DNA of 40,152 bases, from the NCBI GenBank assembly GCA_001872485.1, contig MNWK01000030.1, positions 1 through 40,152 of the forward strand, written 5' to 3'. This stretch comes from Parcubacteria group bacterium CG1_02_44_31. GTDB taxonomy: Bacteria; Patescibacteriota; Minisyncoccia; UBA6257; Brennerbacteraceae. The notes beneath the pieces are model-generated. The model had not been told where the DNA came from and did no database searches. It saw only the letters and a list, made by a program, of their open reading frames with translations. Below, piece after piece: positions 3,081-17,318 of the stretch. The first letter of the stretch is position 1, and each line of letters opens with the position of its first letter. Position numbers and translations under genes: made by a program.

Positions 3081-3219
3081 TAAATCCTAAATCCTAATTT
3101 CTTCAGCCAGAGGTTGATCCGCCTATGGCGGAAAATCCTAAACAAATCATAAACCCTAAATCTTGAATCCTGAACCCTGAAACTTGAAGCTTAAATCTTG
3201 AATCTTGAATCCTAATTTT
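3081..3219. repeat. Degenerate 7-bp tandem repeat tract (TRAAYCY)
   Basis: From 3150: taaaccc taaatct tgaatcc tgaaccc tgaaact tgaagct taaatct tgaatct tgaatcc taatttt; further units at 3081-3100. Confidence 0.75.
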
Positions 3220-3255
3220 TTATGAATTACGATTGGATTATTTTTGAAATATCAT

Positions 3256-3320
3256 GCCGTAGCGCATTTTCAACTCGTTCATATTCCACCGAAGGTGGAT
3301 GTTGAAAATCTACTACGGGG
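3256..3320. repeat. TIR element, family 1 (copy A)
   Basis: Near-identical to the reverse complement of 22498-22563; inner hairpin CCACCGAAGGTGG. Confidence 0.85.
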
Positions 3321-3332
3321 ATACACAGGCAA

Positions 3333-4304
3333 TTACTCTTGTGCCTTCATTGTATCAGATAGATGATTCCAATACCACGACAATATGCGCGATGTGTCGC
3401 CAAACCTATCCGGAGACCCCAACACGATGCTTGCAAGCGTTCCGCGCGGAGTTTCAAACACCACAAGCAAGCTTCCACCTGTTTCAGGCGTGTATCCGGT
3501 TTTGGAACCAACAAAACCCGGAATCTGACTGATGAGTTGATTCGTATTGGTTAACGTGAACGTCCTGCCTTGCTCGGTAATCATAGTCAAATGCGCGTAA
3601 CGTGAAAACGAAAACAGGTCAGGATGATGAGCCAACACATATTGCACAAAACGCGCAAGGTCAGAAGCAGTTGAAACATTGTCACCCAATCCGATTGCAT
3701 CTGAGAAATGCGTGGCAGTCATGCCTAAATCAATTGCGGTCTGGTTCATCAGGGAAACAAACGCATCAGCTTGGGTGTCAAACAACGTTCTTTGCGCCGC
3801 ATGGGCAAGCGCGTTATCAGACGCGATGAGTAAAAAATGCATGACTTCGTTTGCGGTAAATTGGTCTCCTAAACGCAAATCCTTGTTAACCGATTCAATT
3901 GCTAAATCGCTTGTCGCAATGGTAAACAATTTGCCATCCCCATATTCTTTAACCAAGAGCGCGGTCATAAGTTTTGTAACCGACGCAATTCCAACCCGGG
4001 CATCGGCGCGGTATTCCCACACGGGATTTTGAGCAGATACGTTATACAATCCTGCTGATTGCGCGTACACATCGGGAAACAGCGCATTCTCGCGCGGGGC
4101 CTGATTTCCCAAATCCTGCACGCGAGAAAACAAAGGAAAATACGTTACCAATGGATACGAAACCGACTGCGCCGGCGCAATCGGTTTGGGGCTTGCCACG
4201 CCGCGCGCAGGCAAGCCGCGGCGGCTGTTTGCCAAAACAAACATAAAAATCATCACGCATATTGCGCCTGCATATACATATATAGTACGAAACCGCGCAC
4301 TCAT
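3333..4304 (-). CDS. D-alanyl-D-alanine carboxypeptidase (penicillin-binding protein 5/6 family)
   Basis: SVTKLMTALL (SxxK), SDNALAH (SxN), KTGYTPETGG (KTG); start at MSARFRTIYVYAG inside the listed ORF, ATGA overlap with scpB stop. Confidence 0.9.
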   Translation of the reverse strand: MSARFRTIYVYAGAICVMIFMFVLANSRRGLPARGVASPKPIAPAQSVSYPLVTYFPLFSRVQDLGNQAPRENALFPDVYAQSAGLYNVSAQNPVWEYRADARVGIASVTKLMTALLVKEYGDGKLFTIATSDLAIESVNKDLRLGDQFTANEVMHFLLIASDNALAHAAQRTLFDTQADAFVSLMNQTAIDLGMTATHFSDAIGLGDNVSTASDLARFVQYVLAHHPDLFSFSRYAHLTMITEQGRTFTLTNTNQLISQIPGFVGSKTGYTPETGGSLLVVFETPRGTLASIVLGSPDRFGDTSRILSWYWNHLSDTMKAQE

Positions 4305-4957
4305 GTTATTTTCCCGTCTTGGTTTTGTTCGCTTGCGCCGTATATCCCGCCATAGCGGAATTGTACGGGAGCGGTTGTTTGAACAATATCGTTCTCGCTT
4401 TCCGCGTTTTGTTCGAACAGCATATCGCACCTTTTTTTCAGCGTATCAAAATCAGGAAGCGATTCACGCGATGAAATGCCTAAAAGCTGTAAAAGCGCTA
4501 TGGTCGGTTTATATAAAAATATATGATGCCCTTTTGTATCGGGTACGCGTTCCACCAGTCCGCGCAAAAGCAAATTGCGCACAATAAAACTTGAATTAAC
4601 TCCGCGGATTGCATCAATTTCCGCGCGCGAAATGGGCGCCCGATACAACACAATGCTTAACGCTTCCAAACTCGCGCGGCTGAGGTCTTGCTGAAAATCC
4701 TGTTTGATACACGCATCAATCAAAGCATAGTGTTCTGACTTCGTGCCCAGTTGGTACGCATCGTCATGCCGCACCATGCACAACCCTTGAGACGCATCTC
4801 GCTCGTACTTTTGCGCCAGCGCGTCGCACGCGCGGCGCGCATCCGCTTCGGAAATACCAACGGCATCTGCAATGCGCTTTGCGTCCAACGCCTCGCCGTA
4901 CGCAAATAACAGCGCTTCTATTTTTGATTGTATGAATTGCAATTCTTGTTCTTCCAT
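4301..4957 (-). CDS. scpB: Segregation and condensation protein B
   Basis: ScpB-like winged-helix sequence IEALLFAYGEALDAKRIADAVGIS, SRASLEALSIVLYRAPISRAEIDAIRGVNSSFIVRNLLLRGLVE; likely start MEEQELQF. Confidence 0.9.
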   Translation of the reverse strand: MEEQELQFIQSKIEALLFAYGEALDAKRIADAVGISEADARRACDALAQKYERDASQGLCMVRHDDAYQLGTKSEHYALIDACIKQDFQQDLSRASLEALSIVLYRAPISRAEIDAIRGVNSSFIVRNLLLRGLVERVPDTKGHHIFLYKPTIALLQLLGISSRESLPDFDTLKKRCDMLFEQNAESENDIVQTTAPVQFRYGGIYGASEQNQDGKIT

Positions 4958-4964
4958 ACACAAA

Positions 4965-5699
4965 TTACGTTCCGAACACGGATGTCTCGTGTTGAGTTGC
5001 TGCATTTTTCACCACGATATCCGATGATTCGTCCGTTTGCTCCAAGTATATCATTTTTTTCTTGAACAAAAAAAGCAAAGCTAAAAACGCCACAATGATT
5101 TCTCCTTTCTTTTTTGAACCATTGACTAACACGCGCAGGGTCGTGCGGGCATGCGTTTGAATGCGGCCAATGATTTCTTGGATTTTCTGCTCAATGCTTG
5201 CGGCACGCTCCAAAACCTGCTTTTCCTTCGGTTGAACAAACCGCTCCCATATTGCAAGCGATTTTGCAAACAGCTCATTTGCCATAGTTATTGAAAAACC
5301 TTGAGGAGAAACAAATGAGACCGGACGGCCTTGCCATAGCGTCCGCGCGATAATTCCCACGGGACTTTTCGCGCGCTCCTGAATATAGCGCGTTTTTTCC
5401 TTGTAACGCTGATACTCCTGCAGCGCGTATTTCAATGCAACAACTTCCTGTTCTTCTTCAGGCGAGAGTTCTATTGTTGGCAAAAGCGCTTTTGATTTGA
5501 TGAGAAGCAATCGGGACGCCACAACCAAAAAATCAACCAGCTCGTTCATAGAAAGATGCTGCAGCTCGCCCACTGCTTCAAGATACTGGTCAGTCACGGC
5601 AGCAAGCGCCACATCGGTCACAGAGAGTTTTTGCGACTCAATCAATTCCGCGAGCAATTCCAACGGACCTTCAAATTTTTCAAGTTTGATATGCATCAT
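4965..5699 (-). CDS. scpA: Segregation and condensation protein A
   Basis: KLEKFEGPLELLAELIESQKLSVTDVALAAVTDQYLE; ScpA family, adjacent to scpB. Confidence 0.92.
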   Translation of the reverse strand: MMHIKLEKFEGPLELLAELIESQKLSVTDVALAAVTDQYLEAVGELQHLSMNELVDFLVVASRLLLIKSKALLPTIELSPEEEQEVVALKYALQEYQRYKEKTRYIQERAKSPVGIIARTLWQGRPVSFVSPQGFSITMANELFAKSLAIWERFVQPKEKQVLERAASIEQKIQEIIGRIQTHARTTLRVLVNGSKKKGEIIVAFLALLFLFKKKMIYLEQTDESSDIVVKNAATQHETSVFGT

Positions 5700-8172
5700 G
5701 GTGTCTCTGCGCCAAACGCATTATGACCGCAAACAGCTGAAAATCAATTTGGTCTAAAAGATCCCTGAACATTCGATACCCTTCTTTGCGATATTCCACC
5801 AGCGGATCATGCTGGCCGTATGAACGAAGATTTGCCGTGTCGCGCAAATGCTCCATCATTTCCAAATGGTCAACCCACAATGTATCAAACACGCGAAGCG
5901 CGTTCACACGAAATGCTCGTACGAATTGTTCCGTATCTTCTATCTCACGCGCCTCAATCATACCCAAACATACGCGTTCAATCGCTCCTGCTACATCATC
6001 CGTATGTTGGCCCTTGATACGCTCCGTAAAATCCAGCGGAAGCTTTATCAACGACCCAAGCGAATGTATGAAGTCAGCTTCTGTCTGCCCTGATGCGTTA
6101 TAAAACGAAACAATGCGGTCAACGCTTTGCGACACAACAGTACGCATCATGCTGTGCGCACCATCCAATGTTAATGCAAGCATTTCGTCGCGCTTGCGGT
6201 AAAAAGCTTGACGCTGCTTGCTTAACACGTCATCGTACTCCAGCACATGCTTGCGCACATCAAAATACAAACCTTCCACCTTTGCCTGCGCGGAATCAAG
6301 CGCGCGGCTCACAAACGCATGCTCAATAGCCTCGTCTTCCTTGATTCCTAATTTAGTTATATACGGTTTCATATGATCTGACCCGAAAATGCGCATCAAA
6401 TCATCTTCCATAGAAACGAAAAACTGGCTTGACCCATGGTCTCCCTGCCTGCCCGAACGGCCGCGCAACTGGTTATCAATACGCCGCGCTTCATGGCGCT
6501 CTGTGCCTATGACATGAAGGCCGCCCATATCGCATATCTCTGTTGATTCTTGTTCTGAAGCTGGATTTCCGCCTAAAATAATGTCCACGCCGCGGCCAGC
6601 CATATTTGTGGCAACGGTGACTGCGCCGCGCCTGCCTGCTTGCGCAATAATATGCGCTTCTTGTTCGTGATTTTTCGCGTTCAATACTTCATGCGGAATA
6701 CCTTCACGACTCAATAGTTTTGACAGGTATTCATTTTTTTCAATGGAAATTGTGCCGACCAGCACCGGCTGACCTTTTTCGTGGCGCTCCTTGATTTCCT
6801 GAACCAGCGCCTTGAATTTTCCTTGTTCGGTTAAAAAGATTTTGTCAGGCAAACCAATCCTTATCATTGGTTTATTGGTCGGAATCGCTATGACATCCAA
6901 TCCATACACTTTATGAAATTCTTCAGCTGATGTTATAGCAGTGCCGGTCATACCGGAAAGAATTGGATACATGCGAAAATAATTTTGAATCGTGATCGTC
7001 GCGTAGGTCCTGCTTTCTTCTTGAATTCTCACTTTTTCTTTTGCCTCCAGCGCCTGATGAAGCCCCCCGGAATACCTTCTGCCGAACATCAGCCGCCCCG
7101 TAAATTCATCCACGATAATCACGCCCCCATCTTTGACCACATAATCCCTGTCGCGCTGAAACAGCAAATTGGCTTTCAACGCCTCTTCAAGATGATGAAC
7201 TAAAATGAGATTATTTTCCTCATACACGTTTCTGCCGAGCAATTCGCTCATGCGCTCAATTCCTTGTTCGGTCAAAGAAACGAGTTTGTGTTTCTCGTCA
7301 ATGGTGTAATCCGTTTCTTTGTTGAGACGAGGCACCAATTTGCTGAATTCGCGGTACAATTTCCCCGCGTCCTGGTCCGGCGCGGAAATAATCAACGGCG
7401 TGCGCGATTCATCAATAAGAATGCTGTCCACTTCATCAATAATGGCAAATGCGCACGGACGCTGGACTTTTTCTTCGACAGCATAAACGAGATTATCGCG
7501 TAAATAGTCAAATCCGAACTCATTGTTCGTCCCGTACGTGATATCCGCAGCATATGCCTCACGGCGTGAAATCGGGCGCAAATATTCGTGAAATATCTTA
7601 AAACCTCCTTCAGTATCCCGGGCGCGGTCATCAGCGCGTTCCTGGGATTTTGGTTTTATGCTCTCCTGATAATCAGGGTCATAAGAAAAGGCATGGTCAT
7701 GCACTAAACACGCCACAGAAACCCCGAGCGCATGATAAATCTGCCCCATCCACACCGTATCGCGCTGAGCAAGATAATCATTAACCGTCACCACGTGCAC
7801 GCCTTTGCCAAAAAGCGAGTGAACATACGCGGGAAACGTCGCCGCAAGCGTTTTCCCTTCACCTGTTTTCATTTCTGCGATTTTGCCTTGCGCCAGCACG
7901 ATGCCGCCCATAATCTGCACATCAAACGCCCGCTGTTTCAGCGTTCGCTTCCCTGCTTCCCTGACAAGCGGAAATGCTTCAATAATCATATCCGCCAGCG
8001 CGACGCCGCTTTGCGCGCGCTTCCGCATATGCGCGCCTTTTTCCAAAAGCCCGGTATCTGATAGCGTTTCAATTTCCGATTCTTGCGCATTGATACGTTC
8101 AAGCACAGGAACAAGCGCGTGAATTGCGCGCGCATTTGCATCGGGGAAAAATTTTTTCAATAAAAACTTCAC
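5680..8172 (-). CDS. secA: Preprotein translocase subunit SecA
   Basis: 830-aa ORF; MKTGEGKTLAATFPAYVHSL, VDSILIDESRTPLIIS, TNMAGRGVDIILGG, RGRSGRQGDHGSSQFFVSMEDDLMRIFGS. Confidence 0.98.
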   Translation of the reverse strand: MKFLLKKFFPDANARAIHALVPVLERINAQESEIETLSDTGLLEKGAHMRKRAQSGVALADMIIEAFPLVREAGKRTLKQRAFDVQIMGGIVLAQGKIAEMKTGEGKTLAATFPAYVHSLFGKGVHVVTVNDYLAQRDTVWMGQIYHALGVSVACLVHDHAFSYDPDYQESIKPKSQERADDRARDTEGGFKIFHEYLRPISRREAYAADITYGTNNEFGFDYLRDNLVYAVEEKVQRPCAFAIIDEVDSILIDESRTPLIISAPDQDAGKLYREFSKLVPRLNKETDYTIDEKHKLVSLTEQGIERMSELLGRNVYEENNLILVHHLEEALKANLLFQRDRDYVVKDGGVIIVDEFTGRLMFGRRYSGGLHQALEAKEKVRIQEESRTYATITIQNYFRMYPILSGMTGTAITSAEEFHKVYGLDVIAIPTNKPMIRIGLPDKIFLTEQGKFKALVQEIKERHEKGQPVLVGTISIEKNEYLSKLLSREGIPHEVLNAKNHEQEAHIIAQAGRRGAVTVATNMAGRGVDIILGGNPASEQESTEICDMGGLHVIGTERHEARRIDNQLRGRSGRQGDHGSSQFFVSMEDDLMRIFGSDHMKPYITKLGIKEDEAIEHAFVSRALDSAQAKVEGLYFDVRKHVLEYDDVLSKQRQAFYRKRDEMLALTLDGAHSMMRTVVSQSVDRIVSFYNASGQTEADFIHSLGSLIKLPLDFTERIKGQHTDDVAGAIERVCLGMIEAREIEDTEQFVRAFRVNALRVFDTLWVDHLEMMEHLRDTANLRSYGQHDPLVEYRKEGYRMFRDLLDQIDFQLFAVIMRLAQRHHDAYQT

Positions 8173-8185
8173 GAATAACTAACAA

Positions 8186-8554
8186 CTACTCTTTCGGAGT
8201 TTGGCGCAGAAGTATTTCTTTGAATTTGCGCGCGGCGCGGCGCCAGCGTTCAATTGGTTTTCCCTTTCCCTGTTCAAGTTGACGCACAAGCTCAAGAGCT
8301 ATTTTATCTATCGCAAAATACATGTCTGCCGCACGCTCGGTATTAACACAAATTTTTCGCGGCGCACGCACGGTCACAGTTATCTCAAACACATCACCTT
8401 CGCGATGCTGCGTGACACGATGAGCGGAAAATTCAAACAACGGATCGCCATCATACCGCTCTGCCGCGCGCGCAACTTTTTCAAACCGTTGAATAATATA
8501 ATCCTTCAACGCCTGGGTGACGTTGATTTTTCGGAATGAAAATTTAATCCTCAT
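8186..8554 (-). CDS. hpf: Ribosome hibernation promoting factor / sigma-54 modulation protein
   Basis: KINVTQALKDYIIQRFEKV and DMYFAIDKIALELVRQLEQGKGK, HPF/RaiA family. Confidence 0.88.
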   Translation of the reverse strand: MRIKFSFRKINVTQALKDYIIQRFEKVARAAERYDGDPLFEFSAHRVTQHREGDVFEITVTVRAPRKICVNTERAADMYFAIDKIALELVRQLEQGKGKPIERWRRAARKFKEILLRQTPKE

Positions 8555-8572
8555 AGCGTATTGCGTCCATGC

Positions 8573-8790
8573 ACCACGTTAGAAGTCTGCTATTAAATTT
8601 TGTAGCAGAAGAGTGTTAAAAACACTTCTTGGTCATTGTTATTTATGGGCTTCGTCTTCGCAAGAACTTTGTTCTTGCGAAGACCATGATATTTTACCAC
8701 AAGAGGCAGCATTATATCATATATCATAATTATTGTAATGGCACAAATATATATGACATAAAAGACGAGCGTTCGCGACTTCTAACGGGG
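8573..8790. repeat. Possible TIR unit, family 2
   Basis: Ends CCACGTTAGAAGTC ... GACTTCTAACGGGG are inverted; shares CCCCGTTAGAA-type ends with 18217-18285. Confidence 0.4.
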
Positions 8791-8842
8791 CAAGCCCCTC
8801 ATGCCAAATTTTGGTGTGGGGGCAAGGGCGTGGAACGGGAAC

Positions 8843-8906
8843 AAAAAACCAGTCCCTTGCTTGCGGCCTTGATTGCGCACAATCAAGAATACAAGTAAGG
8901 GACTGG
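8843..8906 (-). terminator. Large rho-independent terminator hairpin
   Basis: Minus strand: CCAGTCCCTTACTTG ... CAAGCAAGGGACTGG followed by TTTTTT; inner CTTGATTGTGCGCAATCAAG. Confidence 0.75.
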
Positions 8907-8917
8907 TGAGAACAAAG

Positions 8918-9010
8918 TTAGCGAGCCCTTCGTGCCTTCTTTGCCTTCTTTGCCTTCTTTGCAGGCTTCTTTGCCACTTTCTTGGCCGCCTTTCTCTTCT
9001 TTGCTGACAT
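8918..9010 (-). CDS. 30-aa Lys/Ala-rich basic protein (histone H1-tail-like)
   Basis: Manual translation MSAKKRKAAKKVAKKPAKKAKKAKKARRAR*; below the ORF-track size cut-off; followed by the strong minus-strand terminator. Confidence 0.7.
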   Translation of the reverse strand: MSAKKRKAAKKVAKKPAKKAKKAKKARRAR

Positions 9011-9238
9011 AGATGTAAATATGTTTACGCGCTTACGCGCAAAGAATTAATTGCAAGCGTTCGACTTGCACGCTTGATTATGAAAAGAAACAAAAATATA
9101 AAATGCAATGTGCTTCTTGCTATCAATTGTAGAACGCAAAAAAAGTTTGGCAAGTGTGGATAACTCACACACATGAAAAAAATCAATGCGCGACAAAAAC
9201 AGAATGCAAAAAATGAAAAACTCTTGCCTGCCAGTCGC

Positions 9239-10225
9239 TTACGCTCCAGACACTTGCGGGCAAGATTCCGCAAACGGGTCGCGGTCAAAACCCATTAATC
9301 GCACTTCGTGCTGCAAACGGACGCCGAATCGTTCAAAAACTTTCTTTTGAGCGAATTGTGCAAGCTTTATCACGTCCAGGGCGGTCGCAGAACCCGCATT
9401 GACGAAATAATTTGCTTGATGCCGCATAATTTGCGCACCGCCAATCTTTTTTCCCGCAACCCCGGCTTGCTCTAACAAATAACCCGCGCCTATTTCCTTT
9501 TGCGATTTGGCAAAACGAGGAAGTTTGCTTAAAAAATTCGGACTGAACATTCCAGCAGCTGCGTTGCCAAAGAAACATCCGGCGCTTTTGTTCTTTGGAG
9601 GATATCGAACGTTGCGATACGCTATAATTGCTTGACGCAAATTCATCTTTTCCCATGGCATGTTTGAACCAACATCAAGAAACAGCTCTACTTGCCAGAT
9701 CACACCGGGCATTTCACCCTGTTTCTGTTTGAACACGCTTGTACCATATGAAAATCCGCACGCATCTTGAGAAAATGATTTTTTAACGCCGTTGCAGTCA
9801 AAAAATACCACCTGGCGGACCATATCACCTATGCTCCCACCAAATGCGCGGGCGTTTCCGTAAATCGCTCCGCCAATCGTTCCCGGAATGCCGCTCAAAT
9901 TTTCCAATCCCCGTAAATTCTTTTTGACCGACATCTCAACCAGTTTATCCAGAGACATTCCGGCACCGACAACAATACGGTTGCCGCTGATCACACATGT
10001 ATCATGCGCAACGCATATCACTAAGCCTTGCACCCCTGCATCGGCTATCAACACATTACTGCCGCCGCCCATCACGGTAACAGGCAATACGTTTTGTTTG
10101 GCAAACATAAACGCCTGCTTTAATTCAGACAACGTTTTTACGCAACAAAAATATTCAGCGGGTCCGCCGATACCGAGTGTGGTATAGCGCTTGAGAGAAA
10201 TATTTTGTTTGATTTTCATATTCAT
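9239..10225 (-). CDS. murB: UDP-N-acetylenolpyruvoylglucosamine reductase
   Basis: YTTLGIGGPAEYF, GGGSNVLI, GLENLSGIPGTIGGAIYGNARAFG; MurB family. Confidence 0.95.
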   Translation of the reverse strand: MNMKIKQNISLKRYTTLGIGGPAEYFCCVKTLSELKQAFMFAKQNVLPVTVMGGGSNVLIADAGVQGLVICVAHDTCVISGNRIVVGAGMSLDKLVEMSVKKNLRGLENLSGIPGTIGGAIYGNARAFGGSIGDMVRQVVFFDCNGVKKSFSQDACGFSYGTSVFKQKQGEMPGVIWQVELFLDVGSNMPWEKMNLRQAIIAYRNVRYPPKNKSAGCFFGNAAAGMFSPNFLSKLPRFAKSQKEIGAGYLLEQAGVAGKKIGGAQIMRHQANYFVNAGSATALDVIKLAQFAQKKVFERFGVRLQHEVRLMGFDRDPFAESCPQVSGA

Positions 10226-10473
10226 TCATCTCATTGTACCATGCGGCAAAGATGCACAATGAACATCAAAGGGTGACACATTGAGCGACCCTTTCTCTGA
10301 ATTAACGAAATCAACAGGTATATTACAGAATCAACAATTACCATTTACGAGCTATACCCATACATTATGTGTCTATGCACGTACGCGTTATATGAAGTTG
10401 AAAAAATAGTTAACACTATTACCCAGGGGCATTGAAGCCATTACATTGTGGTATCACCTGAACAACGAATTGA

Positions 10474-10550
10474 CCCTGTAGTGATTTTTTGACCTACGTT
10501 AAAAAGTTGAAAACGCGAATTGCGAAGCTTGTTAAAAATCTACTACGGGG
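10474..10550. repeat. TIR element, family 1 (copy C)
   Basis: CCCTGTAGTGATTTTTTGAC ... GTTAAAAATCTACTACGGGG. Confidence 0.75.
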
Positions 10551-10593
10551 TTGACTTTCATATCCGCACACGGCAAAATATATACATATCTTG

Positions 10594-10672
10594 CGCCTTG
10601 CAATCCCTATCGGACAGCGCTCACTTAAAATCATAACTTTTGGAGCAAACTTCCGATAGGGATTGCAAGGCG
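10594..10672. repeat. Perfect 21-bp inverted repeat with 37-bp spacer
   Basis: cgccttgcaatccctatcgga (10594-10614) and tccgatagggattgcaaggcg (10652-10672). Confidence 0.9.
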
Positions 10673-10843
10673 TAAATCCATCCCGTACTGACCGCGGATT
10701 TTATACACCCCAGTACCAGTTCTGCCTTGCGGAACAATAACGGGGTGTTCGTCCAGCGAACAACCTGAATAGAAAAAGACCATATGTGCCGCAGCAAAAC
10801 GCCCTATGTAATATTCCATAAACGCGCGAGTCTCCACAAAATC

Positions 10844-10873
10844 GAACCCCCGACTTACGTCGGAGGTTCGATA
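10844..10873. repeat. Short palindrome/hairpin
   Basis: TCGAACCCCCGACTTACGTCGGAGGTTCGA. Confidence 0.75.
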
Positions 10874-11043
10874 CATAACTCTTGGAGTTCCCTTTCCGCT
10901 CAAAAGAGCTAATTGGGAATACGCTCACTTGTCCCTATTGTAGCACAAAAATTGAAAAAATCAACCCCGTGTATAATGCCACCCAATTCTGTATTTGTGA
11001 AAAACTTAGCTTCCTACAAAAAAAGTATCCTCAAAACAACTCG

Positions 11044-11982
11044 CTAAAGAGTGGTGATGTGACGAGACTGAACAATAAATAGTTTGCCACCCCCAATCGT
11101 CCACTCAATATCCTGTGGTTCGCCAAAATGTTCCTCTATTCTTTTTGATATTCTCGCTATTGTTTTTATCTGAACGGTTGAAAGCTTTTGTTTGTCTCTC
11201 TTGGCGTCTAAAACGGGAGTTATTTTATTCCCGCTTTTATCCAGAGCAATCATTTTATCTTGCGGGTTTTTGTTTATATCCAAGACCTTAAGAGAATTCT
11301 TTTCAACCACATAAGTGTCCGGGGTCTGCTGGCCGGAAACCAATAACTCTCCCAAGCCCCAGCAAGCCTCAATTACCATTTGGTTTTTATCCTTTGTCAC
11401 CGGATGCACGGTAAAACAGACGCCGGAAACATCGGATTGGATCATTTTTTGGACGACCACCGCCACGCTTACTTTCTTTCTCTTTAGGCCTTTTTTTACC
11501 CGATAAAACAAGGCTCTGGGAGCAAAAAGGGAAGCCCAGCATTTTTTAACATTCTTGATCAAGTCCTTTCTTGCCGTATTCAAATAGGTTTCCAGCTCTC
11601 CGGCCCAAGAATCAATTTTTGAATCTTCAGCTGTAGCCGAACTTCTGACGGCAACATATTTTGCTCCTAATCTTTCAAACGAATCCATAATTTCTTTTTC
11701 AATGCTTTTGGGCATTTCTGCTTCCATAATCAATCTCCTGATAATTTCTGCGCTTTCTTCCACCGATTCTAAATCCTCAATATTGATTCTGTTCAACATT
11801 GCCTTTATTTCCACGTTTATATCCGTTTCTTTTAAGAATCTTTCAAAGGCCGAGGCCAAAACTACAAAACCGGGTGGCACGGGCATTTTGATAAACGCTA
11901 ACTCTCCAAGATTAGCCCCCTTTCCCCCGGCAATCTTAATATCTCGCCTGTTTATTTCTTTGAAAGTTTTTATGAATTTCAT
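11044..11982 (-). CDS. Stand-alone PEP synthase/PPDK-type N-terminal ATP-grasp domain protein
   Basis: GGKGANLGEL, VPPGFVVLASAFERFL, VRSSATAEDSKIDSWAGELETYLN, VQKMIQSDVSGVCFTVHPV, PQDIEWTIGGGKLFIVQSR; no swivelling or PEP-binding domain in the same ORF. Confidence 0.9.
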   Translation of the reverse strand: MKFIKTFKEINRRDIKIAGGKGANLGELAFIKMPVPPGFVVLASAFERFLKETDINVEIKAMLNRINIEDLESVEESAEIIRRLIMEAEMPKSIEKEIMDSFERLGAKYVAVRSSATAEDSKIDSWAGELETYLNTARKDLIKNVKKCWASLFAPRALFYRVKKGLKRKKVSVAVVVQKMIQSDVSGVCFTVHPVTKDKNQMVIEACWGLGELLVSGQQTPDTYVVEKNSLKVLDINKNPQDKMIALDKSGNKITPVLDAKRDKQKLSTVQIKTIARISKRIEEHFGEPQDIEWTIGGGKLFIVQSRHITTL

Positions 11983-13445
11983 TTTGCTTTTTTTAAGATT
12001 TTAACGGTTCCAATATCAGCATCTACTTCCACTGTATCTCCATCCTTTAACACTTTGGTTGCGTTTCTCGTAGCGATGAGGCAAGGGATTTTTAACTCTC
12101 TTGAGCATATTGCAGCATGACAAGTGATGCCTCCTTCATCGGTTACAATCGCCGTTGCTTTATGTATCGCTATAGTCATGTCCGGCGTAGTCATAGATGC
12201 CACCAATATCTCGCCTTTTTGTAATTTTTGGACATCTTTAACAATCTTTATTACTCTGACCCTTCCCTTAACTTTTCCTGGGTAAGCCGTAGTTCCTTTT
12301 AAGGCCTCTGTTTCAATCTTCTCTTCTAACTCTCTTTTAATTTCGGCAAGTTCTTTCTCGTCGCTAACCACTTCGATAATCCCGTTTCTCATAACGATAG
12401 CATAGTGCTTTTTACGTCTTTCTATTTCTTTTGAATCCGGGAATATATTTTGAAGGAGAAACGCTTTGATCTCATAGGGGGTTAAGAATAACACATCATT
12501 GAACTCTAATTTTGCTCTTCTTGATAATTCTTTCAGAAAAGGCGTTATGTGGCAAAAAGCCTGTCTTAATATATCCGTTCGATAAGTTCTTAGATATAAA
12601 TATTCTTGGGTAAGATTAATAAGTTGTACTAACCTTTTATTATCCTTGAATTCTTCTTTGACCTTATTAAATGTTCTTTCACCCTGTTTTATTTTGTCCA
12701 ATGTGTTTTCTAACTCTCTTTCGGGATTATGGGTATTCTTCAGATTCTTCGTAAAATATTCTTTGCTCCATATCGGGAGCGATAAAGCATAGTGTGGCAA
12801 CCAGTAAAACCTTCTTGTGTGTTTTTGAAGCAGGTCGCTAATTTCCTTATCAATTTTTCCCTTCTTTTTGTATTTGATTGCTATTTTTAGTAAATTAATC
12901 CTTTCTTCGTCAACCGCATTCAATTTAGTTTTTGTCGTTATTACTTGCCAATATCTCTCAAAAAGATTTTGCTTATCTTTGGATTTTAACTCTTCGTTTA
13001 ACACATTCTTCGTTTCTTCTTCAAGAAATTTCTCAATTACTAGCGGTGCGTACAAACCAAAGGAAAACTTGCTCCGTCCATATCCATAGTTTTTATAATA
13101 TTGATAAAGCTGACTATTTGCTATCTTGCTTAAATCCAACCTTGATATAACTTGAAACGCCTTAAGCCACTCACTGCAAATTTTATAGATATTATCTGTT
13201 TCTCTTTTCAACCAATTCTTATTGTTTTTTATTTTATTTATAATTCTTTTCGCAAATTCTTCCCATTCTTCTTTGTAGAAAAAATATGTATGCTTATCGC
13301 CTTGAGGAAAATATATTTTGTTCTTGATCCCAGCACCTAACTTTTTAAGATAAATGTCCCTTTCCCCCTCTAAGTCATGAATTTCCACAGGCAAACTAGC
13401 CTCTCTGGTAATAGTCTCAATCCATTTTATTTTTGCTCTTTTCAT
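11979..13445 (-). CDS. Helical domain + C-terminal PEP-utilizer phosphohistidine (swivelling) domain
   Basis: C-terminus VTDEGGITCHAAICSRELKIPCLIATRNATKVLKDGDTVEVDADIGTVKIL has the catalytic His motif; 4-bp overlap with the ATP-grasp gene. Confidence 0.85.
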   Translation of the reverse strand: MKRAKIKWIETITREASLPVEIHDLEGERDIYLKKLGAGIKNKIYFPQGDKHTYFFYKEEWEEFAKRIINKIKNNKNWLKRETDNIYKICSEWLKAFQVISRLDLSKIANSQLYQYYKNYGYGRSKFSFGLYAPLVIEKFLEEETKNVLNEELKSKDKQNLFERYWQVITTKTKLNAVDEERINLLKIAIKYKKKGKIDKEISDLLQKHTRRFYWLPHYALSLPIWSKEYFTKNLKNTHNPERELENTLDKIKQGERTFNKVKEEFKDNKRLVQLINLTQEYLYLRTYRTDILRQAFCHITPFLKELSRRAKLEFNDVLFLTPYEIKAFLLQNIFPDSKEIERRKKHYAIVMRNGIIEVVSDEKELAEIKRELEEKIETEALKGTTAYPGKVKGRVRVIKIVKDVQKLQKGEILVASMTTPDMTIAIHKATAIVTDEGGITCHAAICSRELKIPCLIATRNATKVLKDGDTVEVDADIGTVKILKKAK

Positions 13446-13687: not shown

Positions 13688-14800
13688 CTAAGGATCAATC
13701 CGGGGGTCACACATTGTGTAAAACCGTTCTTTTGTCATTTTGATTACAGATCTCTTCGGCTTAAAAGAAGGAAACCCTTTTCGAACCTTTTCCAGTAAAC
13801 TTTTGGAGGGCTGCCACTTTTTTCCTAAAAGCTTGTAGATTGGTCTCATGCGATAATAGACTCTTTTAACCGACTCTACCACTTGCTCTTTTTCGCTTAA
13901 ACCCTCTGCCCACAAACTTATCTTCAAAGCCTCTTTTTCAATGACTTCACAGACCTTAAATAGTAATCTTTCTTCATTCAAGAACTCTTTATTTCTTCCC
14001 CTATGGGCAAATCCGAAAACTGCCAGTGTATTTTCTACCAAAGACAAGTTGTGGGTATAATCATTCAATACCGGAAAATCAAAACGGACTTTCGTGTTGT
14101 AAATCGTATAAGCTGTAACCGCTTTGTAGGGAAACCGGGTTTTAAAAGGAAGGAGCTTAGGCTCTCTTAGATTGTAATATTCGCGTACTATCAACTGAGC
14201 AGAAGAACCTTTCCATTTTACAGGATAGGGTCCGTGGGTTTCCCTGGTGGCGCAGACTGCGTTCCAAAACACAGCTTCGTCTAGACTCAAAAGATCCCCA
14301 TGAAGTCGGGCAAATAGTTTGGCAAAGTTGGGATTAAGTCGCGTATCAATCCAGTCTGCTTTTTTAATCTCTTTCCTAATCCTTTCTTTATTCCAGATAA
14401 TATTAAGTCCGTCCTCGCAGAAAACGCTTCCTACCATTAAAAACTTCATCATTTTTAAAAATTCTAAATCTATTTTCATTCTTTCTCTTTTCTTAAGCTT
14501 GGCTGTTTTCACCGTTGATATGAATCGAGACAAAGCTAACCATACTGCATTAGGATATTGAAATGCCAAGGCAATTTCTCTTAAAGATTTAGATTTCCTT
14601 AGTAACAAATAGTCTGCGCAGAACGATCGAGAAGAAACTTCGTCAAACAAGGGGGAATAAAAAAGGAAGTTGATGGGCCACCAAGCATAAGGGTCTAAAA
14701 CCTTTCCGCTTTGATAAGCAGCCTTATCAAAAGCCTTAAGCATTTTGTCAATAAGAAGATTGTCTTTTTGCATAGATTTTTCCTTGGTTACCATCGACAA
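13688..14800 (-). CDS. Uncharacterised 370-aa protein of the dikinase-module cluster
   Basis: Long ORF between and overlapping swivelling-domain genes; no family recognised. Confidence 0.75.
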   Translation of the reverse strand: MSMVTKEKSMQKDNLLIDKMLKAFDKAAYQSGKVLDPYAWWPINFLFYSPLFDEVSSRSFCADYLLLRKSKSLREIALAFQYPNAVWLALSRFISTVKTAKLKKRERMKIDLEFLKMMKFLMVGSVFCEDGLNIIWNKERIRKEIKKADWIDTRLNPNFAKLFARLHGDLLSLDEAVFWNAVCATRETHGPYPVKWKGSSAQLIVREYYNLREPKLLPFKTRFPYKAVTAYTIYNTKVRFDFPVLNDYTHNLSLVENTLAVFGFAHRGRNKEFLNEERLLFKVCEVIEKEALKISLWAEGLSEKEQVVESVKRVYYRMRPIYKLLGKKWQPSKSLLEKVRKGFPSFKPKRSVIKMTKERFYTMCDPRIDP

Positions 14801-15095
14801 TAATATACATGCCGTCTTTTAGCAATCGCGTGGCGTTTTGCGTTCCGACAACAGCTGGAATTCCAAACTCTCGGCAGACAATCGCCGGATGCGAGAGCAT
14901 ACCGCCTTTATCGGTTACGATAGCGATTGCCTTTCTCATTACCAAAATCCATGGAGGGCTAGTTATAGGGGCGACAAGAATTCGACCGTTTTTCATCTTT
15001 GAAAACTCTTTTATGGTTCTAATAACTACTACTTTTCCTTCAACTAAACCATAACTCGCCCTTATTCCTTTTAAAATAATTTTTTGTCTTGGCAT
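14748..15095 (-). CDS. Stand-alone PEP-utilizer phosphohistidine (swivelling) domain
   Basis: 115 aa; VTDKGGMLSHPAIVCREFGIPAVVGTQNATRLLKDGMYIIVDGNQGKIY. Confidence 0.85.
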   Translation of the reverse strand: MPRQKIILKGIRASYGLVEGKVVVIRTIKEFSKMKNGRILVAPITSPPWILVMRKAIAIVTDKGGMLSHPAIVCREFGIPAVVGTQNATRLLKDGMYIIVDGNQGKIYAKRQSSY

Positions 15096-15238: not shown

Positions 15239-17284
15239 CTATTGATTCAACCTTCTTACTAATCCTTTGGTGGCGTCAAGCTCAATCATTTGTCCGTCCT
15301 GTATAACGTTCCTGGCAAAGTTCGTGCCCATAATCGAGGGCAACTTTAACGCCTTGCCGTAGAGAGTGGCATGAGAAGTCAACGAATCCTCGTCAACAAC
15401 AAACCCCTTAACCCGATAAAGAGAAGAAAGGTATTCCGGAGTGGTTTGGGGGGCGATCAATATATCTCCTGTTTTTACCTTGGGAAAATCAGAAGCGTCC
15501 AAAACAATTCTCGCCTGGCCCCGAACCCTGCCCTTGTAAATGGTTTTCCCTGGTATAACCTTGATGTTTTTTGGCGCTTCAACTGCTTCCATTATTCTGA
15601 CTATTCCTTCAATGGCGTCAACTTCTACCAGATCATTATCATTGAGAATCTGAGTAGCGTTCTTGGTCCCGATAATGCAGGGAAGATTCGCTTCTCTAGC
15701 AACCAAAGCCGCATGGCAAGTTATCCCTCCCTCATCGGTAACAATCGCGGCTGCCTTGTTAATGGCCACCATATAGTCAGGAGTGGTCATTTTGGTTACC
15801 AGGATATCTCCCTTTTCCACTTTAGAAAGTTCGGAAAGCTTTCTTACCACCTTAACCTTTCCTATCGCTTTCCCCCGACAGGCAATGTTCCCTTTAACCG
15901 CCCTTTGCATTGCCGAACCCGGAGAAATAATTTGAAAACGCTCCATGGTTTCAATTATTTCCTTTGTTCCAATAATAGTCCTTATTTTTCCTTTCCACAT
16001 TAAAATTGCCCAGCCTTTTTGTCTTTGTTTTACCAGGTTTTTTACTTTTCCTTTGCTAATATTTACGGATAAACCAGTCAATATCTCCTCATAAGATAAT
16101 AGTTTTACTTCTTTTGCATTTAAATCCAACCGCCAGCCCGCTTCATATAAAAGAGGTAAATGGTAATAATGTGCCTGGCAAATGGCGTTTTTTCTGTAGA
16201 TTCTTAAATAAATATATTCCTGGAGGAACTTTACTCTTTCAATAAGAGTATGAGAGGCTTTAATTTTCTTAAGAACGTTTGCCAATTTTTTTCCTGCCTT
16301 ATTCCCCTCGTTGTTGAGTCGCTTAAGCTCTTTGGCCGGGTTGGCAACTTTTTCCAGCATATTTTTTACTTCATTTTCAAAATAGTCTTTTGTCAAAGGT
16401 TCGGCATAAATGCTCCACATAGGAAGCCAGCAGAAATTCTCGCGGTGTTTTTCCAGTAATCGATAAAACTTCTGGTCAAAACCTTGTTCTTTAGCATATA
16501 CAGCGATTTTTAAGGCACTGTCGCGCTCCTTATCTTCAGCAGAAACTGGTGATAAAAGTATTTTTACATCTTCCTCATTAGAAACTTCTTCCCTTATCTT
16601 TTTTTCAAAATAACCCTCTATTCCGTGCGGAACTGTAACGAAAGGAAATACTTTCAGATAGTGCCGGTAAAAAACTTTCAACAAACCCAATATTTCCCGA
16701 TCACTCTTCTTAGTAAGATCTATTTTAGGAATCTTCATGGCAACATTAACCAAACGGTCGCAGGCCTGACGGCAGAGAATAATATCTTTTTTGACAAAAC
16801 TAGGATTAGAATCAATTTTTTTCGAGATCGTCTTCCCTAAAAGAATCAAATCTTCTTTAGCATGATAAACTCCAAAAGTGATGTTGTTATACCAAAGGGC
16901 ACTCATGGATACTCCATAAACCTTTCTCATCTCAATAACCAATCCTTTCGTCCAAGCTGATGCAAAAGAAAACGAAGTTTGCCTATTAAGAATTTTTACC
17001 CACTTTTGCCCGTCTTTAACTTGCGTTCGTTTAGCCACCACCTTTATCCCAACAATCTTTTTGATCTCCGGAATAAATTCAAAAGACCGGTTAAGGCTAT
17101 ATGGCTTTAGCCTGCCTTTGCGAGAAGATTTAAGAATTCCCTGGTTTTCCAAGGTTTTTAACGCCTGAAAAACGGCGTTAGGATAAAGACCGGTTTCGCG
17201 GACGAGTTCGTTAATATAAAAACTCCGGTCCGGATTAGAGAAGAATACCCTCAGTATTTTTTGCGAGGTATTAGACAACTGCAT
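15239..17284 (-). CDS. Winged-helix domain + helical domain + two tandem PEP-utilizer swivelling domains
   Basis: N-term SQKILRVFFSNPDRSFYINELVRETGLYPNAVFQALKTLENQGILKSSRKG (wHTH); GGITCHAALVAREANLPCIIGT and DSLTSHATLYGKALKLPSIMGT; central region resembles the 488-aa protein. Confidence 0.88.
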   Translation of the reverse strand: MQLSNTSQKILRVFFSNPDRSFYINELVRETGLYPNAVFQALKTLENQGILKSSRKGRLKPYSLNRSFEFIPEIKKIVGIKVVAKRTQVKDGQKWVKILNRQTSFSFASAWTKGLVIEMRKVYGVSMSALWYNNITFGVYHAKEDLILLGKTISKKIDSNPSFVKKDIILCRQACDRLVNVAMKIPKIDLTKKSDREILGLLKVFYRHYLKVFPFVTVPHGIEGYFEKKIREEVSNEEDVKILLSPVSAEDKERDSALKIAVYAKEQGFDQKFYRLLEKHRENFCWLPMWSIYAEPLTKDYFENEVKNMLEKVANPAKELKRLNNEGNKAGKKLANVLKKIKASHTLIERVKFLQEYIYLRIYRKNAICQAHYYHLPLLYEAGWRLDLNAKEVKLLSYEEILTGLSVNISKGKVKNLVKQRQKGWAILMWKGKIRTIIGTKEIIETMERFQIISPGSAMQRAVKGNIACRGKAIGKVKVVRKLSELSKVEKGDILVTKMTTPDYMVAINKAAAIVTDEGGITCHAALVAREANLPCIIGTKNATQILNDNDLVEVDAIEGIVRIMEAVEAPKNIKVIPGKTIYKGRVRGQARIVLDASDFPKVKTGDILIAPQTTPEYLSSLYRVKGFVVDEDSLTSHATLYGKALKLPSIMGTNFARNVIQDGQMIELDATKGLVRRLNQ

Positions 17285-17290
17285 TAATTA

Positions 17291-17318
17291 ACTATACAAC
17301 TACCTTGTATAAAGTCAA
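17291..17318 (-). promoter_or_regulatory. Promoter with overlapping palindromic operator candidate
   Basis: Minus strand TTGACT-N16-TATAGT; palindrome TATACAA-CTACC-TTGTATA at 17293-17311. Confidence 0.65.

Follow-up and report, generated by a model that had tools for sequence, protein, structure and literature searches.

The window analysed here is a 40,152-nt stretch of the 0.53-Mb genome of Parcubacteria group bacterium CG1_02_44_31 (contig MNWK01000030.1). Within it lies a 681-aa open reading frame that joins a winged helix (wHTH) to a helical domain and two phosphohistidine (PHis) domains, next to four smaller genes on the same strand. The features, by position in the window, are as follows.

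11044..11982, minus strand: 312-aa ATP-grasp protein (PPDK_N) with conserved GGKG, VRSSATAED and DIEW motifs
11979..13445, minus strand: 488-aa helical-PHis protein without a wHTH, 32% identical to the 681-aa protein
13688..14773, minus strand: helical protein of about 360 aa, no PHis domain and no Pfam match; it resembles a 354-aa neighbour in locus L022 (21% identity)
14748..15095, minus strand: 115-aa stand-alone PHis protein, separated by 143 nt from the 681-aa gene, with which it may or may not share a transcript
15239..17284, minus strand: whole coding sequence of the 681-aa wHTH-helical-PHis-PHis protein (ATG at 17284, stop at 15239)
15248..15559, minus strand: second PHis domain (second PF00391 stretch), residues 576-679, which retains its His but not the GG
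15371-15373, minus strand: H638 codon (checked), second PHis domain
15587..15901, minus strand: first PHis domain, residues 462-566, canonical motif (PF00391)
15713-15715, minus strand: H524 codon (checked), first PHis domain
15920..17011, minus strand: helical domain, residues 92-455; RPH-Lm profile match from residue 320 on, best Foldseek match RPH
16202-16204, minus strand: R361 codon, in the helical domain
17087..17284, minus strand: winged helix, residues 1-66
17291..17296, minus strand: predicted -10 box TATAGT (promoter scan), overlapping the operator
17293..17311, minus strand: predicted operator TATACAAGGTAGTTGTATA, the only match in the window at up to two mismatches
17313..17318, minus strand: predicted -35 box TTGACT (promoter scan)

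Architecture and distribution of the fusion protein

The initial annotation had read this ORF as an N-terminal winged helix followed, at the C-terminal end, by two tandem swivelling histidine domains, the second of them divergent, and each of these elements is borne out. Pfam matches two stretches of the protein to PF00391 (E 1e-43). The first motif, TDEGGITCHAAL, places H524 as the phosphorylatable histidine of a T/SxxGGxxxH pattern (TDEGGITCH) and has, like PEP synthase, a threonine two residues ahead of it; the second, VDEDSLTSHATL, has lost the GG and kept its histidine, H638. In Pfam the wHTH scores below the cut-off (HTH_24, E 0.004), but it is clear against the PADLOC wHTH models, with E 2e-13 to PDC-M05A, and 2e-15 for the L108 homologue. 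A wHTH pattern (H5-16, H24-31, H35-47, E51-53, E62-64) is present in the AlphaFold model, and Foldseek finds MarR/ArsR-type proteins with this part of the model, whose pTM is 0.51 and whose inter-domain geometry is unreliable. By its sequence it belongs to the antitoxin type of wHTH known from wHTH-nucleotidyltransferase proteins, and the PADLOC search of the protein returned this wHTH relationship only. A BREX paper that mentions phosphohistidine proved unrelated.

The protein is no PEP synthase or PPDK, enzymes that unite an ATP-grasp, a His domain and a PEP-binding TIM barrel in a single chain: its His domain alone matches, and its NCBIfam scores lie far below the cut-offs. The helical domain and first PHis domain together match the acceptor half of rifampin phosphotransferase (RPH), which in two-component dikinases is a separate subunit (HpeH); the chain has an RPH-like helical domain and a swivel PHis domain and no ATP-grasp. 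A profile built from all six complete proteins aligns with RPH-Lm along residues 320-566 (E 2e-27), and the best PDB matches to the model are RPH entries (Foldseek, E 2e-14). The second phosphotransfer of RPH depends critically on Arg666 and Glu667 (PMC4844700). In the alignment Arg666 falls on R361, which does not vary among the six complete copies; of 70 rows in the wider family, 41 have R and 14 have K at this position. The Glu667 position is not conserved, being I or T in the six.

Protein searches show that the fusion is neither unique to this genome nor a sequencing error. Six further genomes carry it, five in complete copies 37-62% identical to the 681-aa protein (L033, Roizmanbacteria, 62%; L107, 60%; L034, Woesebacteria, 45%; L108, 39%; L101, 37%) and one, L139, in a copy cut by a contig end. 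The genomes of these relatives are drafts or metagenome bins; two carriers belong, by name, to the Candidate Phyla Radiation (Patescibacteria). With so few carriers among the 1,663 genome slots searched (in overlapping sets), the fusion is rare. All six complete copies keep H524 and H638 along with R361.

In a midpoint-rooted tree of 70 helical-PHis proteins, the wHTH-bearing proteins all fall in one clade. The same clade holds L095, with one PHis domain and no wHTH, and L076, L079 and L082, which have a second PHis-like domain and no wHTH; in these three the first PHis motif is intact and the second histidine is gone, and a search for the operator at their genes did not find it. This pattern suggests that H638 has a part in the DNA-binding function. 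At the same time, L076, L079 and L082 form a single clade, so the loss of the second histidine and of the wHTH may have been one event.

The promoter palindrome

New in this analysis is a palindrome ahead of the wHTH-PHis gene in all seven genomes. The inverted repeat TATACAA-N4/5-TTGTATA is conserved at the gene's own promoter, 8-11 nt ahead of the start codon, in every carrier; the L034 version is CATACAA-N5-TTGTATG, and L139, found after the palindrome had been defined on the first six genes, has TATACAATATTATTGTATA 8 nt ahead of its ATG. Read towards the gene, the window has TTGACT (17313-17318), then the operator (17293-17311), TATAGT (17291-17296) and ATG (17284). The right half-site overlaps a -10-like box in each of the first six genes, with five or six of six box positions matched, and -35 matches are poor in L033, L101 and L107. 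With so little room between operator and start codon in all seven genes, the transcripts may be almost leaderless.

The palindrome arms are 96% identical on average across carriers, while identity over 60 nt upstream is 0.28, against 0.27 expected from composition; the flank is at chance level, so the palindrome is not explained by a flank inherited from a recent common ancestor. It occurs once per locus in the 107,697 bp of six loci and once or twice per carrier genome, and it is present in 10 of 192 phylum genomes, two of the ten being carriers. G000, G543 and G908 have extra copies, each with its arms 4 nt apart. To judge by sequence, one stands 49 nt ahead of a ribosomal L10-like gene, another within a LexA-like ORF and a third 9 nt ahead of a cation-efflux-like ORF. 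The last of these, a second ATACAA-N4-TTGTAT in the carrier G908 (L117, 1501-1516), is placed as the operators are and marks a possible second target. As it is the only extra copy with operator-like placement, we do not claim a wider regulon.

Related half-sites are found at genes for homologues of the wHTH. TACAA-N6-TTGTA stands upstream of 8 of 17 wHTH-nucleotidyltransferase homologue genes, compared with 0.9% of random 80-bp windows, and several of the other genes show related palindromes with changed bases, for example TACCATAATTATGGTA. Comparison of such palindromes, as seen in the upstream regions of L044, L051, L052, L054, L055, L057, L061 and L031, might allow the DNA specificity of this wHTH type to be decoded.

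Overall, the initial annotation's DNA-binding transcription regulator is well supported by a promoter palindrome conserved in seven of seven carriers. The conserved palindrome at the promoter, its near-unique occurrence, its overlap with the -10 box and the half-sites at wHTH homologue genes combine to favour autorepression as the best reading.

Possible phosphate donors and neighbouring genes

The initial annotation had also cast the 312-aa ATP-grasp protein as the dedicated phosphate-donating partner of the regulator, a proposal that is weakly supported: the two genes share a cluster here, but in the stretches read there is no ATP-grasp or other dikinase gene beside the fusion at the other complete carrier loci. 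Even in the window, the 488-aa helical-PHis protein, whose gene end is overlapped by 4 nt by the start of the ATP-grasp gene, is the more obvious partner, and locus L022 has a similar gene set without the wHTH gene. A full PEP synthase was found in all six carriers tested; in four carriers other than the present one it is the only PPDK_N protein found, so that a dedicated partner gene is absent there, and the fifth, G542, has PEP synthase plus fragments. The 312-aa protein was therefore dropped as a universal partner, and since carriers mostly have only PEP synthase, the donor, if any, is not generally a dedicated ATP-grasp subunit. That donor and acceptor can be split has a precedent in two-component dikinases such as HpeHI, whose HpeH is able by itself to move phosphate between substrates (PMC12167813); a carrier without a dedicated donor could thus sense a phosphorylated metabolite directly.

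Other neighbours of helical-PHis genes deserve mention in their own right. Alpha/beta hydrolase genes follow them in L033 (4715-5338), L108 (2467-3231, 5 nt after) and L112 (8725-9495, overlapping), and may hint at the substrate. Histidine-phosphatase-like genes with an N-terminal RHG/RHS motif adjoin split dikinase genes in many genomes (L021, 9249-10097; L022, 8298-9155; L024, 3397-4287; L026, 5557-6375; L027, 4686-5441; L028, 496-1353; L103, 316-1239), with PF00300 confirmed in L027 and L103 and no Pfam match in L021, L022 and L026; they are possibly phosphohistidine phosphatase partners. TrmB-type regulator genes lie divergent beside wHTH-less helical-PHis genes in L112 (6439-7224, minus strand) and L138 (2650-3426, plus strand), a possible two-gene version of the fused regulator. 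Finally, seven consecutive helical-PHis paralogues of 437-516 aa occupy L103 (G306:C5) 3121-13416 in one genome, and L024 5408-10135 encodes a protein of 1575 aa in which one ATP-grasp is combined with three helical-PHis units; these genes represent an expanded dikinase acceptor family that has apparently gone unstudied.

A proposed switch and its relatives

Taking these observations together, we consider it probable that the 681-aa protein is an autoregulatory factor that combines a wHTH, an RPH/HpeH-like acceptor module and a second, specialised PHis domain, and whose operator binding is switched by phosphate or ligand state. The protein would bind TATACAA-N4/5-TTGTATA on its own promoter, presumably as a dimer, and block RNA polymerase, a step that we regard as a strongly supported prediction. 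The helical domain would bind a small molecule or phospho-metabolite, and H524 would exchange phosphate with that ligand or with an ATP-grasp protein, which would be the 312-aa protein in this genome and PEP synthase in others. H638, either phosphorylated or acting as a docking point, would then relay this state to the wHTH and change operator binding. In this way, we infer, the protein and any co-transcribed genes would be produced as substrate or phosphate donor requires. That activity depends on phosphotransfer, as the initial annotation proposed, is plausible, given that the H524 motif is intact, that H638 is kept and that the helical domain is of the acceptor type and has the phosphate-binding Arg of RPH. 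More tentatively, and with rather more doubt than confidence, we suggest a repressor whose DNA binding is set specifically by phosphoryl transfer onto its dikinase-type swivel PHis domains, with entry at H524 and output through the wHTH-linked, GG-less H638, such that ATP- or PEP-driven phosphotransfer would be coupled directly to transcription. Several points count against the autoregulatory switch: the wHTH and H638 are linked through a single clade, in which both were lost, the Pfam scores of the wHTH are below cut-off, the Glu667 position is not conserved, -35 boxes are poor in three carriers, and most carriers have no dedicated phosphate donor.

These points leave room for simpler readings, the most serious of which is a plain autoregulated enzyme subunit. 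Such a protein would bind its operator and act as an ordinary dikinase acceptor that phosphorylates a small molecule, and its DNA binding would be set only by protein level or substrate binding, not by phosphorylation. The helical-PHis module is, after all, the acceptor half of RPH and HpeH, R361 is kept, and the hydrolase genes that come next in L033 and L108 are what a small metabolic operon would contain; yet such a subunit leaves unexplained why a second PHis domain with His but no GG loop is conserved in wHTH-bearing proteins only, and four carriers have no ATP-grasp donor besides PEP synthase, so that we judge it unlikely. The same PEP synthase, present in every carrier tested, is what would recommend a sensor controlled by phosphorylation alone, in which the helical domain has lost catalysis and PEP synthase or the 312-aa protein phosphorylates H524 to report the ATP/PEP state of the cell. 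The H524 motif is canonical, down to the threonine that it shares with PEP synthase, but a pure carrier would not need a helical domain so well conserved, R361 included, and this sensor seems to us distinctly improbable.

It would surprise us greatly, by comparison, if the protein were no transcription factor at all, the palindrome being a mere shared promoter feature and the wHTH a protein-interaction relic. The sub-threshold Pfam scores and the resemblance of the right half-site to a -10 box point that way, but the left half-site, which has no promoter role, is equally conserved in seven of seven carriers, and the motif is almost unique per genome and matches the half-sites of wHTH homologues. 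An autoregulatory factor switched by phosphate or ligand remains our preferred explanation.

If the switch works as proposed, two-component and PTS-PRD systems would be joined by a further way of coupling histidine phosphorylation to transcription, and this in lineages about whose gene regulation little is known. In the open-access literature searched, we found no description of a protein in which a DNA-binding domain is joined to a swivel phosphohistidine domain. A predicted 19-bp operator and two named histidines make the hypothesis testable with one purified protein. The finding further indicates that small-genome bacteria have a large family of split and tandem dikinase acceptor genes that has apparently gone unstudied.

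Among known systems, RPH-Lm (PMC4844700; PDB 5FBS, 5FBT and 5HV1) is the best structural and sequence match to the helical domain and first PHis domain, Arg666 corresponding to R361, but it has its ATP-grasp in the same chain, one PHis domain and no wHTH, and its Glu667 is replaced by I or T in the 681-aa family. HpeH of HpeHI, with CreH and PpsA (PMC12167813), has, like the 681-aa protein, a swivel PHis domain behind a helical substrate domain, with the ATP-grasp on a separate protein; unlike it, HpeH has no wHTH, no second PHis domain and no known DNA binding, and HpeI is its dedicated ATP-grasp partner. The antitoxin-type proteins of the MNT (wHTH-nucleotidyltransferase) systems, PADLOC PDC-M05A, have the same wHTH type and TACAA/TTGTA promoter half-sites in about half of the genes sampled, but their effector is a nucleotidyltransferase in place of a dikinase acceptor, and their spacer is N6 where ours is N4/5. 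A further comparison is with the PTS-controlled PRD regulators (review PMC8560693). There, a metabolic phosphotransfer chain sets the activity of a transcription factor by phosphorylating its histidines. The likeness to the activity control proposed here is functional, and we claim no homology: those regulators use PRD and EII domains, for which none of six members of the present family has a Pfam match, where the 681-aa protein has dikinase swivel PHis domains. Functionally similar, too, are the BirA-type trigger enzymes (PMC4016012): although their enzyme half is a biotin ligase and they involve no phosphohistidine, they likewise join an N-terminal wHTH to a small-molecule enzyme and regulate their own pathway.
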